This document shows, one piece after another, positions 22,392 to 58,108 of a DNA stretch of 64,000 nt (its first letter is position 1; every line of letters starts with the position of its first letter). A program made the position numbers and the translations under genes. The DNA is taken from NCBI RefSeq assembly GCF_013520865.1, contig NZ_JACDXJ010000001.1, forward strand, positions 2,099,001 through 2,163,000, read 5' to 3'. The DNA is from Microvirga mediterraneensis (lineage in GTDB: Bacteria > Pseudomonadota > Alphaproteobacteria > Rhizobiales > Beijerinckiaceae). The notes under the pieces were generated by a model, which saw only the letters and a program-made list of their open reading frames with translations, made no database searches and was not told where the DNA came from.

Positions 22392-23228
22392 ATGAGCCTT
22401 GAAGTGATGCTGCCGGGCGGTGAAGCCGTTCCGGCCCTTGGGCAGGGAACCTGGCAGATGGCCGAGACGGCAAGCCGCCGTGAGCGGGAGATCGATGCGC
22501 TCCGCCTCGGCGTCGAGCTCGGCATGACACTCATCGACACGGCTGAGATGTACGGCGAGGGCACGGCAGAGCAACTCGTCGCGGAGGCGCTCGCAGGGCA
22601 GCGGGACCGGCTCTTCCTCGTAAGCAAGGTCTATCCCCACAACGCGAGCCGCCAGGGGGTGATGCAGGCCTGTGAACGCAGCCTTAGGCGGTTGAAGACG
22701 GAACGGCTCGACCTTTATCTTCTGCACTGGCGCGGCGGCGTGCCCTTGGAGGAAACCGTTGCCGGCTTCGAGGAGCTTCGCCGTGCCGGCAAGATACGCC
22801 ACTGGGGCGTCAGCAACTTTGATACCGATGACATGGAAGAGCTGTTCGCGATTCCGGAAGGAGCGAACTGCGTCACCAATCAGGTGCTCTACAACGTGAG
22901 CCGGAGAGGGCCGGAATTCGATCTCATTCCCTGGATGCAGAACCATCGCATGCCGCTCATGGCCTACAGCCCGATCGAGCAGGGCAGGCTCCCGGACAGC
23001 AGCGTCCTGGAGAGGATCGCGAAGAAACATGGGGCGAGCCCGTTCCAGATCGCCTTGGCCTGGGTTCTTCATCAGCCTAACGTGATCGCAATCCCGAAGG
23101 CTTCGAGCGCGCATCATGTGCGGGACAATCATCGAGCGCTTGAGATCCGGCTGGAGAGCGATGACCTTGAGGCCATTGATTCAGAGTTTCCGCCGCCGCG
23201 CCGCAAGCGCCCGCTCGAAATGATCTGA
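22392..23228 (+). CDS. Aldo/keto reductase
   Basis: A 278-residue NADPH-dependent reductase with the AKR tetrad: Asp and Tyr in LIDTAEMYGEG, Lys in VSKVYP, His in LLHWRG. The cofactor region IPKASSAHHVRDN is also typical. The start at 22392 has a strong GGAGG eight bases upstream; the frame extends further 5' without support. Similar proteins reduce small aldehydes or ketones, including methylglyoxal and sugar-derived carbonyls. It is followed after 33 bases by an inositol-monophosphatase family gene, possibly in one transcript. Confidence 0.9.
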   Translation: MSLEVMLPGGEAVPALGQGTWQMAETASRREREIDALRLGVELGMTLIDTAEMYGEGTAEQLVAEALAGQRDRLFLVSKVYPHNASRQGVMQACERSLRRLKTERLDLYLLHWRGGVPLEETVAGFEELRRAGKIRHWGVSNFDTDDMEELFAIPEGANCVTNQVLYNVSRRGPEFDLIPWMQNHRMPLMAYSPIEQGRLPDSSVLERIAKKHGASPFQIALAWVLHQPNVIAIPKASSAHHVRDNHRALEIRLESDDLEAIDSEFPPPRRKRPLEMI

Positions 23229-37051: not shown

Positions 37052-38566
37052 TTATTCCTTGCGGCGCTTGAACAGGGACAGGGGCTCGAAGGGCTCGAGC
37101 GGATCGAGCAGCCCCGTACCTGCCGCCGGGACGGCCGGGCCGTCATCCGTCATGGCTTTGAAAGCGCGAAGGCCGCGAATGTTCGTGTTGAGCTTCTCGA
37201 CGGCCGCGATAACGGACCCGCCATTCGCATCGAGGGCCACGCCGAACGTTTCCGGGGCCACATCCAGATGTTCCGCGAGGAGGCGGTTGCGAAGCGCCAC
37301 GATGGTCCGGCGCATTTCCTCCGTCGTGGCCTCGATGGCGGCGTCGCATTCGCTGTCGAGGCCAATGGAGCGGTTGTTCAGGTTCGAGGAGCCGATGCGG
37401 AGAAAGACGTCATCCACGATGATGAGCTTGGAATGAATCAGAACCTGGCATTCCCCGCCTTTTCCGTTGGGAATGACCGGATAATAAACCCGAAGGCGGC
37501 CATGCCGGTCGCATTGGCGCAGGCGGCGGATCAGCCGGTCCCGGTTGGTGCCCATGACGAGCTCCTCGGCCCAACCATGGGATTCGTGAGTCTGGACGAC
37601 GACGATCTCGGGTCCGTCGGGATCGGCGAGACGCCGCTCCAATACGTCGCCAATATAGGGCGCCGTCATGTACTGCGCTTCGATGTAGATTGTGTCCTTC
37701 GCCGCCGAGAGCGCATCCAGGGTCAGCGCCGCCGCCTCGTTGGCGGCCGGCTGTTCGCCCCAGGCGGGATAGGTGCGCGCGATGGCGACCGGCGCATGAC
37801 GGAAATCGGGCGCGAGACCATCAGGCCAGGGAGCAGGTCCCGCCTGGGCAGGAGGAGTAAGTTCTTCGCCAGTGGCGAATTTCCAGCGCTCGCGGCCGAC
37901 CTCGGCAATCGCGCGCGCGGCTTCGCCGTCCACCGCCATCTGGAGATCGTGAACGGGTTCGTAGATGGTTCCGTCATCCTTCAGCCGGATTGGGTCGTCG
38001 CAGGCATGGCGGCAGGTGTCCCAGCGCTCGACGGTGAGGTCCATGCCGCCGATGAAGGCCAGGCTGTCGTCGATGCAGACGATCTTCTGGTGATGGGCGG
38101 CGTAGAGCGGATGATGCGTGTCGAGCTTGAGCTGCAGGCGCGGGTGGTTCTGCCAATCGGCGCCGAAGATCAGAGGACCCGGCGCGCCCGGCGCATGAAC
38201 GACCGCGACGCTCCACACGAGAATTCTGACCTCGAGGTCAGGGCGCTCCTCGACGAGCGATCGGAGCAGGGGGCCGAGCGGTGGCGACTCCTCGACGCCG
38301 AGATCGGGCCGCAGGCGGATGCTGCCGTCGAAATCCCACCCGACGATGAAGATCGAGCGGCGGGCCTTTCGCAGGGCGGCTTCGAGATTTGCGAAATAGG
38401 CGGCGCCGTCGATGAGCACGCTCGCCCGGTCGGCCTTGGCCACGCGCCAACAATTCTGCCCCGGACGCAGGATCGGACCCGGGGGCGGTGTCGTTGCCGC
38501 CGGGACCCTGTCGAGCACCTGCCTGCTTGTCGTCTCGTTTAAAACTTGCACGTCAGCCATGACCAT
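37052..38566 (-). CDS. Phospholipase D family protein, cardiolipin synthase-like (ClsB/YbhO group)
   Basis: About 504 residues with two HKD motifs: HHQKIVCIDDSLAFIGGMDL and IHSKLIIVDDVFLRIGSSNL. These form the two-lobed active site of enzymes that transfer phosphatidyl groups to alcohols or hydrolyse phospholipids. The start lies at ATG 38566 or 38560, neither with a clear ribosome site; the frame stays open far upstream only as overlap with dedA. With YbhP-like and YbhN-like genes next to it, the set matches E. coli ybhP-clsB-ybhN, though here this gene runs in the opposite direction. A phospholipase with a different substrate remains possible. Confidence 0.88.
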   Translation of the reverse strand: MVMADVQVLNETTSRQVLDRVPAATTPPPGPILRPGQNCWRVAKADRASVLIDGAAYFANLEAALRKARRSIFIVGWDFDGSIRLRPDLGVEESPPLGPLLRSLVEERPDLEVRILVWSVAVVHAPGAPGPLIFGADWQNHPRLQLKLDTHHPLYAAHHQKIVCIDDSLAFIGGMDLTVERWDTCRHACDDPIRLKDDGTIYEPVHDLQMAVDGEAARAIAEVGRERWKFATGEELTPPAQAGPAPWPDGLAPDFRHAPVAIARTYPAWGEQPAANEAAALTLDALSAAKDTIYIEAQYMTAPYIGDVLERRLADPDGPEIVVVQTHESHGWAEELVMGTNRDRLIRRLRQCDRHGRLRVYYPVIPNGKGGECQVLIHSKLIIVDDVFLRIGSSNLNNRSIGLDSECDAAIEATTEEMRRTIVALRNRLLAEHLDVAPETFGVALDANGGSVIAAVEKLNTNIRGLRAFKAMTDDGPAVPAAGTGLLDPLEPFEPLSLFKRRKE

Positions 38567-42746: not shown

Positions 42747-43151
42747 CGAGGACGAATCCTGCCAATCGGAGCGTTCCGCCGGTGGCACCGGCCTTGTGCC
42801 GAGGATCCCGATACGGTGAGGCACGGCGATTCAGAGCGCCGGGATGGCCATGCCGCGGGTTGGGTGATCCGTTCGTGTCAAAGAGCCAGCACCTTGGGGC
42901 CCGCAGCGTGCGCTGCGAGCCTGAAGGTCAGTCGAGGGAGGGTGCGGTGCATCGCCCGGCTCGCTGTGAGAGTGAGAGTGGAAGAGCCGGACGGCGCCTC
43001 GCACGCGGTTCTTTTCAGGTGGACCAGCTGGGGAGCCCCCAAGGTCGACCTCCCGCGACCACAGGTGTGCGAGACCTGCGGCGGGACCGCCTCCCGCCCC
43101 GCACTGGCTGACGCCTCGCGAGCGCGCCCCTCGGCGGGCGGGAATACGAAC

Positions 43152-43195
43152 GATATAGCCGAGCTTGTCCGCCCTGTCAAGAACAAAGTAAGAAC
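43152..43195 (-). promoter_or_regulatory. Leftward sigma-70 promoter with overlapping SOS (LexA) box
   Basis: On the minus strand: GTTC-N7-GTTC at 43195-43181, exactly the direct-repeat LexA box of alphaproteobacteria, directly followed by TTGACA (43180-43175), a 17-base spacer and TATATC (43157-43152). A LexA dimer here would touch the -35 and block transcription until DNA damage. Predicted start near 43145. The transcript carries no recognised gene. Confidence 0.7.
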
Positions 43196-43220
43196 ATAAC
43201 ACTCGCCTCGCACCCGGAGC

Positions 43221-43312
43221 CCTCCTCCTGAGGAGCGAAGCGTCTCGAAGGATCGTCCAGTGCTCTCCAGCTCCTCCTTCGCGACGCCACGGCGGGGCGC
43301 CTCAGGATGAGG
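43221..43312. repeat. Rhizobial-type intergenic inverted repeat
   Basis: Ends CCTCCTCCTGAGG (43221-43233) and CCTCAGGATGAGG (43300-43312) are inverted copies with one mismatch. Inside, GCGTCTCGAAGGA and TCCTTCGCGACGC pair again with one mismatch. The CTGAGG...TCTCGAAGGAT phrase is familiar from intergenic palindromic elements found in many copies in Bradyrhizobium, Methylobacterium and relatives. Only one copy is in this window. Confidence 0.65.
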
Positions 43313-43414
43313 CCGGAGGAATGTAAGGAAGGCGTGCGCGGCCGCAACAAGTGCGGCCATGACGTCATCGGATCAGTGGGGGAAGAAGCTTTCTCTCATG
43401 GCCTGCTTCTCAGA

Positions 43415-56818: not shown

Positions 56819-58108
56819 ATGTCGATGTTGAAGATGACCCGTAGACACCTGATGGCGCTGGCCTCCGCCGCGCTGGTCTCCGGCGCTGTCATGGGAACGG
56901 CGCAGGCGCAGGAGACCATCAAGGTCGGCGTTCTGCATTCCCTGTCCGGCACGATGGCGATCAGCGAGACGACGCTGAAGGACGTCATGCTGATGCTCAT
57001 CGAGGAGCAGAACAGGAAGGGCGGCCTGCTCGGCAAAAAGCTCGAGGCCGTGGTCGTCGATCCTGCTTCCAACTGGCCTCTCTTCGCCGAGAAAGCACGC
57101 GAGCTGATCAGCCAGAACAAGGTTGCGGCCGTGTTCGGATGCTGGACCTCCGTATCCCGCAAATCCGTTCTCCCGGTGTTCAAGGAACTCAACAGCATCC
57201 TCTTCTATCCCGTGCAATACGAGGGCGAGGAAAGCGAGCGGAACGTGTTCTACACGGGCGCCGCGCCGAACCAGCAGGCCATTCCGGCCGTCGATTATCT
57301 CGCCAAGGAAGAGAAGGTCGAGCGCTGGGTGCTTGCCGGCACCGACTACGTCTATCCGCGCACGACCAACAAGATCCTCGAAGCCTACCTGAAGTCCAAG
57401 GGCGTGAAGTCCGAGGACATCATGATCAACTATACGCCGTTCGGTCATTCCGATTGGCAGACCATCGTGGCCGATATCAAGAAGTTCGGATCGGCCGGCA
57501 AGAAGACCGCCGTCGTCTCCACCATCAACGGCGACGCCAACGTGCCGTTCTACAAGGAACTCGCCAACCAGGGCGTGAAGGCGACGGACATTCCGGTCGT
57601 GGCCTTCTCCGTCGGCGAGGAGGAACTTGCCGGGATCGACACGAAGCCTCTCGTCGGACACCTCGCCGCGTGGAACTATTTCCAGTCCGTCGACACGCCC
57701 GACAACAAGGCCTTCATCGAAAAATGGAAGGCCTTCACCAAGAACGACAAGCGCGTCACCAACGACCCCATGGAGGCTCACGTGATCGGCTTCAACATGT
57801 GGGTGAAGGCGGTCGAGAAGGCAGGGAGCACCGATCCCGACAAGGTCATCGACGCCATCGTGGGCGTCGAGGTTCCGAACCTGACCGGCGGCGTTTCCAA
57901 GATGCTCCCGAACCATCACATCACCAAGCCGGTTCTCATCGGCGAGATCAAGGAGGATGGGCAATTCGAAACGGTCTCGCAGACGGACGCGCTCGTCCCG
58001 GGCGATGCCTGGTCCAAGTACCTCGAAGGCTCGAAGGACATGATCGCCGACTGGAAGGATCTCAAGTGCGGCAACTACAACACCGTCACGAAGAAGTGCG
58101 GCGCCTGA
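56819..58108 (+). CDS. urtA: Urea ABC transporter substrate-binding protein
   Basis: A 429-residue periplasmic binding protein. The signal peptide has twin arginines (MTRRHLMALASAALVSGAVM, cleavage near AQA-QE), so Tat export is possible. The mature part matches UrtA of the branched-chain amino acid binding family: IKVGVLHSLSGTMAISET, EEQNRKGGLLGKKLE, and a urea-site region FGCWTSVSRKSVLP. AGAGGA precedes the ATG. First gene of the urt-ure unit, expressed from the sigma-54 promoter 50 bases upstream. Confidence 0.94.
   Translation: MSMLKMTRRHLMALASAALVSGAVMGTAQAQETIKVGVLHSLSGTMAISETTLKDVMLMLIEEQNRKGGLLGKKLEAVVVDPASNWPLFAEKARELISQNKVAAVFGCWTSVSRKSVLPVFKELNSILFYPVQYEGEESERNVFYTGAAPNQQAIPAVDYLAKEEKVERWVLAGTDYVYPRTTNKILEAYLKSKGVKSEDIMINYTPFGHSDWQTIVADIKKFGSAGKKTAVVSTINGDANVPFYKELANQGVKATDIPVVAFSVGEEELAGIDTKPLVGHLAAWNYFQSVDTPDNKAFIEKWKAFTKNDKRVTNDPMEAHVIGFNMWVKAVEKAGSTDPDKVIDAIVGVEVPNLTGGVSKMLPNHHITKPVLIGEIKEDGQFETVSQTDALVPGDAWSKYLEGSKDMIADWKDLKCGNYNTVTKKCGA

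Follow-up and report, generated by a model that had tools for sequence, protein, structure and literature searches.

What does an SOS-type promoter transcribe when it points into the spacer between glgA and glgX of Microvirga mediterraneensis, where no protein-coding gene was found? The question concerns one site in a 64-kb stretch of the genome (hereafter the window), for which the first-pass annotation had likewise noted the lack of a recognised gene downstream of the promoter. From comparison of the sequences we consider it probable, at roughly 0.7, that the window element is an intact member of a multicopy family of SOS-controlled structured RNA genes.

The promoter and its copies

The promoter lies on the minus strand. 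A GTTC-N7-GTTC box of the SOS (LexA) type (GTTCTTACTTTGTTC, 43181-43195) abuts the -35 element TTGACA (43175-43180), which is followed, after a spacer of 17, by the -10 element TATATC (43152-43157), as placed by the alignment of 27 copies from the same genome. The sequence reads exactly as the first-pass annotation had described it. The accompanying argument, that the match is too good for chance, holds for the box joined directly to TTGACA, which occurs at 29 sites genome-wide against 0 for the reversed control pattern. It does not hold for the box alone, which has 3 matches in the 64-kb window against 1.59 expected, a number reached by 20 of 100 shuffles and not significant. The two other matches in the window (37957-37971 and 57167-57181) both lack TTGACA, and their number is as chance predicts.

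Transcription of the window copy is predicted to start near 43145 on the minus strand, and the conserved structured RNA would extend over some 270 nt (42876-43148, minus strand, both ends predicted). Comparison and alignment of the copies place the conserved unit at about 42876-43197, nearly equal to the bounds of 42878-43195 proposed earlier; in the alignment of copies from this genome it begins at about ATGTTC and ends, in most of them, at about GCTCTTTGACA. Some 130 nt still separate the end of the unit from the glgA stop codon, and the conserved unit therefore lends no support to the suggestion of an RNA antisense to the glgA end. Alignment to four relatives (G021, G003, G017 and G238) shows the window unit inside a palindrome-rich spacer. 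Palindromic REP-like repeats lie on both sides of it (42750-42870 and 43213-43363), and similar ones are found at many other copies.

A search for repeated copies, as had been suggested, was run with 42870-43210 and returned 29 BLAST rows in the same genome, at 72–100% identity to the window copy. Two of these rows lie at either end of contig 1 and, having 126 bases in common, represent one copy, so that the distinct copies number 28; a model search also gives 28 matches. The box and TTGACA are intact in all 28. The 29th site with a box joined to TTGACA belongs to a divergent, longer relative between rnd and aspS (genes named from reading their translations), which is not one of the 28 copies and may be an older single-copy form. 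This aspS-linked relative (L189:2001-2450, from G000:C1:2442346 on) has its own SOS box. When the 64 kb of the window were searched with R2, a model of the 5' domain, only the copy described here was found (E 3.1e-13), the next match being 22752-22796 with E 0.93. Both ends of contig G000:C1 (1-301 and 4703258-4703417) fall inside the one copy that contains the 126-base overlap, and thus the contig probably represents a circular chromosome whose end was left untrimmed.

In this genome lexA, recA and a second recA are all preceded by the same motif, which makes the box a credible LexA site. GTTC-N7-GTTC is also the Caulobacter motif in the available text of a published account (PMC12700426). 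We collected 159 Microvirga copies (152 distinct sequences) with a pattern that fixed the second half-site only and did not require the first, and the first GTTC is present in 157 of them; the last three bases of the box spacer are TT(T/C), while the four preceding bases vary. Together with the motif before lexA and recA, this agrees with the earlier proposal of an SOS-type promoter ahead of a small non-coding RNA. At the second recA (L186), the SOS box is in the spacer toward a UvrD-like gene (named from its translation). The element resembles the alphaproteobacterial LexA regulon in having GTTC-N7-GTTC at a sigma-70-type promoter, as at lexA and recA of this genome, but differs in that its box precedes a multicopy non-coding RNA gene. 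In the available text of a Caulobacter study, no SOS box was found close to where mitomycin-induced sRNA genes start (PMC6237742); control of an RNA by LexA would thus be out of the ordinary in Alphaproteobacteria.

Outside Microvirga, a box within 120 nt upstream was found in none of the 25 distinct relatives whose core was located (28 rows, with three loci doubled; the core of 2 of 30 rows was not located). On this evidence the core does not include SOS control, which looks peculiar to Microvirga. In place of the SOS box, TTATCC(C)CG is found upstream of the core in 11 of the 28 located rows, equal to 10 of the 25 distinct relatives (L198/L218, L210, L211, L213, L217, L221, L223, L227, L231 and L232), and is perhaps the mark of another promoter class or regulator.

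The predicted RNA fold

The predicted RNA opens with two interleaved helices (all coordinates of the fold are on the minus strand). P1 joins a strand just past the -10 element, UCCCGCCC (43136-43143), to a strand past the P3 hairpin, GGGCGGGA (43092-43099). P2 pairs CGAGGG (43128-43133) with CCCUCG (42933-42938), and encloses P3 and the 3' strand of P1. The interleaving of P1 and P2 would make a pseudoknot. P1 was assessed by a swap test and by pair counts. The swap test used 81 copies with 52 distinct strand combinations and involved no choice of register; P1 strands from the same copy scored 22.8, against 16.7 (sd 0.57) for swapped strands and 18.5 for the top of 200 swaps. The P1 pair counts are biased upward, coming from an alignment (A3) of 16 of the 25 rows of alignment A2 that were picked for pairing in one register, and their further pair types were matched by 45 of 500 shuffles.

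Both strands of P2 are nearly invariant and show little covariation: an A-U pair is broken in 5 of 69 copies, and the helix otherwise hardly varies. The best support for P2 comes from the aspS-linked relative: its two strands are GAGGGA and UCCCUC, one matched change as judged by eye. The first G of the P3 hairpin competes with the last base of P2, and RNAalifold on alignment A1 favoured a partly different P3/P2 pairing.

The remaining helices follow in order. P3 is the hairpin GGCGC-GCUCGCGAG-GCGUC (43110-43128). P4 pairs GCGGU (43086-43090), which opens the variable middle domain, with ACCGC (43005-43009), just before which stands AAAAGA; the helix was placed by pair counts. P5 is a long hairpin (42942-43004), placed by pair counts and a loop survey, with a GUGCG/CGCAC base, an upper stem of 12 pairs (42984-42995 with 42951-42962) and a G-poor loop (42963-42983). 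Across 136 P5 loops from 144 distinct copies, the loop averages 20.7 nt and 4.1% G, compared with 33.2% G in the whole RNA. A further hairpin near the 3' end, GGCUCGCAGC-GCAC-GCUGCGGGCC (42898-42921), is replaced in copy L033 by a different stem that is still paired by eye. The RNA would end in the motif GGCUCUUUGACA (42876-42887), which is like a motif of rRNA leaders.

Alignment A1 holds 34 diverse short-class copies, taken from 59 non-redundant copies by omitting 3 in which no P2 3' strand was found, 21 that belong to the long class, and L018, a short row that is truncated. In A1, 95.4% of the cells of P3, P4, the P4 inner stem and P5 are paired. Pairing in these helices falls to 34–45% when the strands are slid, and their two-sided changes amount to 43 cells, where 500 shuffles gave 14.6 (sd 4.8). 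These compensatory changes, together with the P1 swap test, support an RNA fold in which two helices interleave. The window RNA alone has a minimum free energy of -141.5 kcal/mol (z -2.47), and 2 of 200 shuffles were as low.

The P3 loop contains the palindrome CUCGCGAG. We surveyed this loop in 21 core strings, those left after 9 of 30 were dropped as chance matches (5 elsewhere in Microvirga loci and 4 on phage contigs). In 18 of the 21 the loop ends in a palindrome of at least 6 bases (exceptions L189, L210 and L212), a count from a list that is biased, as the pattern demanded AGG after the loop, some loci were found via CTCGCGAG or TCGCGA, and model R2, trained mostly on CTCGCGAG, adds to the bias. 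The palindrome middles are CGCG, CTAG, CATG, TCGA and CCGG, and differ between lineages. Lineage-specific palindromes are not needed by a single hairpin but are needed for loop–loop pairing. Their symmetry suggests self-pairing of the RNA through the P3 loop.

We compared the fold with known RNAs. The covariance models of Rfam 15 gave no match at gathering score for the window stretch, where 3 weak hits lay far below it, 0 hits for the aspS-linked relative, and 5 weak hits among 12 relatives, all far below gathering scores; a known RNA family was ruled out on the lack of any Rfam match above threshold. Searches of the openly licensed PMC literature brought up no paper recognised as describing this RNA family, and the folded RNA gene is apparently undescribed so far. 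OLE, ROOL and GOLLD form homo-oligomers, according to the available text of one report (PMC12286853). The element resembles them as a heavily structured non-coding RNA whose self-complementary P3 loop suggests self-pairing, but differs in its tens of copies per genome, its SOS box and its lack of an Rfam match above threshold. All three are larger than this RNA of about 270 nt, and presumably they are in Rfam, so that the absence of a match would cover their models.

HDV-like ribozymes have the strand order P1, P2, P3 hairpin, P1', P4, P2', with P1 and P2 interleaved, a P3–P1' joint of 1–2 nt and a C-N-A-A-like joint before P2'. The element has the same P1/P2 interleaving and a P3 hairpin between P2 and P1', P2 being weakly tested. 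In contrast, its P3–P1' joint is about 10 nt, a C-N-A-A-like joint before P2' was not seen by eye, the P5 hairpin is extra, and P1 begins near the expected transcript start.

Host gene or selfish element

The element is common in Microvirga and patchy beyond it. Model R1 matched 39 of 48 Microvirga genomes, with up to 34 copies each, and 39 is a floor since G179 lacks an R1 match yet holds 9 exact core strings. The exact core pattern was found in 7 of 199 family genomes, from 2 of 43 genera. Among 397 genomes of the order, R1 matched 5, the source genome included, while R2 matched 12, two of them Microvirga, which belong to 8 of 137 genera and to six families. Outside Microvirga, R2 found 1 to 8 copies per genome, and a genome of the sibling genus (G076) has 5 copies. 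Divergent, often multicopy relatives without the box are present in five Hyphomicrobiales families besides that of Microvirga, and in several of these relatives 260–900 bases are common to the copies of one genome. A scan of genome contigs with the element pattern gave at least 120 stretches, and all 80 of those with names are Microvirga.

The main rival to a host gene, which we think unlikely, is a selfish, SINE-like structured RNA that bears its own promoter. An enzyme encoded elsewhere would copy it in trans to new sites, and the SOS response would time its transcription. The multicopy state and the patchy spread over six Hyphomicrobiales families, that of Microvirga among them, are in its favour, and so are several features of the loci. 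A query with glgA-glgX matched all 48 genus genomes somewhere, and the loci were retrieved for 30; the source locus has the element, while the core and box strings are absent from the retrieved stretches of 29 of 29 relatives (L238-L266). We could map 13 of 27 loci of the source genome within 2.4 Mb of the relative G017, the other 14 being unmappable. Ten of the mapped loci hold a copy in G017 and three are empty, the window locus among them. Two mapped copies were aligned with their G017 counterparts: L034 is in the opposite direction there, and L045 is not. Two copies, L031 and L049, have swapped flanks when compared with two groups from other genomes, and G017 has the arrangement of the source genome.

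Other observations on the loci point away from a selfish element. No terminal inverted repeats were seen by eye in the alignment of copies from the source genome, and no clear target duplication was seen, by eye, at glgA-glgX or in the G017 alignments, the empty sites having diverged too far for the junction to be placed exactly. Copies from different genomes form 25 groups that have both flanks in common, the largest made up of 9 different copies (27 groups before rows with flanks more than 97% alike, from species entered twice, were merged), which indicates that many of the sites are old. Beyond the unit the flanks mostly differ, and some copies of the source genome share additional repeat sequence in the alignment; these common flanking repeats suggest recombination. 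The best copy in the same genome was more alike than the copy at the same site elsewhere in 196 of 214 comparisons, and in 159 of 214 when the mean over same-genome copies was taken instead (134 cross-genome pairs, with flanks more than 97% alike left out and some species counted twice). This pattern indicates concerted evolution. The element is like dispersed repeats of the REP/MITE type in its many intergenic copies, often with palindromic repeats alongside, but unlike them in its conserved promoter, its long covarying fold and the lack of visible inverted ends.

The host-gene and selfish readings share all of the anatomy. The old shared sites and concerted evolution favour a host gene, whereas the patchiness and the empty sites favour a selfish element; an RNA found in 12 of 397 genomes of the order, and giving no model match in 9 of the 48 from Microvirga, fits the latter as well as the former. 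We give only modest credence to the wider idea of a bacterial SINE counterpart, selfish or domesticated, pseudoknotted and self-pairing, that would have captured a LexA-controlled promoter in Microvirga. If that idea is right, transcription, and perhaps spread, would be coupled to DNA damage at about 28 places at once. A selfish element would then be a bacterial structured RNA repeat that bears a promoter and whose transcription follows DNA damage.

Proposed mechanism and lesser alternatives

We propose that the SOS-controlled RNA genes would act as follows. LexA would occupy the box and block the -35 element in all 28 copies, and RecA-driven cleavage of LexA after DNA damage would open all copies together. 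Some 28 strong promoters would then supply an abundant, stable, structured RNA, possibly dimerising, that would act in trans; its most likely role would be that of a scaffold for protein, able to self-pair via the P3 loop. Gene conversion would keep the copies alike, as for multicopy RNA genes. The case for a working RNA is made by the promoter, box and fold being maintained in 28 copies; the same maintenance of promoter and structure tells against a decayed SOS gene, which had been offered as one explanation. If expressed as predicted, the RNA would be a branch of the DNA-damage response in which one RNA owns 28 promoters in a single genome, with a fold beyond the reach of the Rfam models.

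It is very improbable that the DNA rather than the RNA matters, with about 28 extra LexA boxes that titrate LexA and set the SOS threshold. Conservation of the box in every copy would suit such a role, but conservation extends to the -10 element, the geometry of the spacer and the helices of the RNA, and relatives outside Microvirga retain the RNA core without the box.

Hardly any credence attaches to a displaced promoter and leader of an rRNA operon. TTGACA/TATATC and the terminal CTCTTTGACA resemble rrn signals. In 77 of 141 copies TCTTTGA stands no more than 90 nt past the 3' strand of P2, against 1 of 141 in the reversed control; it resembles TTCTTTGACATTG, which is found in all five rrn leaders of this genome 191 nt before 16S and which we take to be the boxA antitermination site. 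However, 0 of 28 copies stand in front of any of the five 16S genes, and the single leader that was read from end to end does not otherwise resemble the element. A leader remnant was rejected as contradicted by the genome positions of the 28 copies.

A short SOS-induced peptide, for example a small type I toxin, had also been raised and is just as implausible: SOS-induced small toxins are known (tisB) and several ORFs span the region, but only 5 of 215 indels in the 26 other copies of the genome, relative to the window copy, are multiples of three, and the longest ATG-started ORF inside the RNA has 29 aa. Only 7, 7 and 8 of 27 copies have their frames open across 225 nt, and no frame is kept in all. 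Substitutions counted by position modulo 3 are uneven (403, 305 and 243), which alone could hint at coding but is found together with frames that are not kept; we attribute it to related copies varying at the same sites.

Finally, we looked for linkage to mobile or tRNA loci. No tRNA was found in the window or in the 28 loci of the source genome that were checked, and the plasmid and phage collections were without a match, so that both tRNA linkage and carriage by plasmids or phages were rejected. In viral contigs one pattern had no match and a second had 10, of which 8 look like chance. Two viral contigs, L269 and L273, show the promoter and P1 by eye. In these IMG/VR contigs (L269:1380-1620 and L273) a sequence that resembles the end of an IS21-type element comes after the RNA core, in nearly the same position in both.
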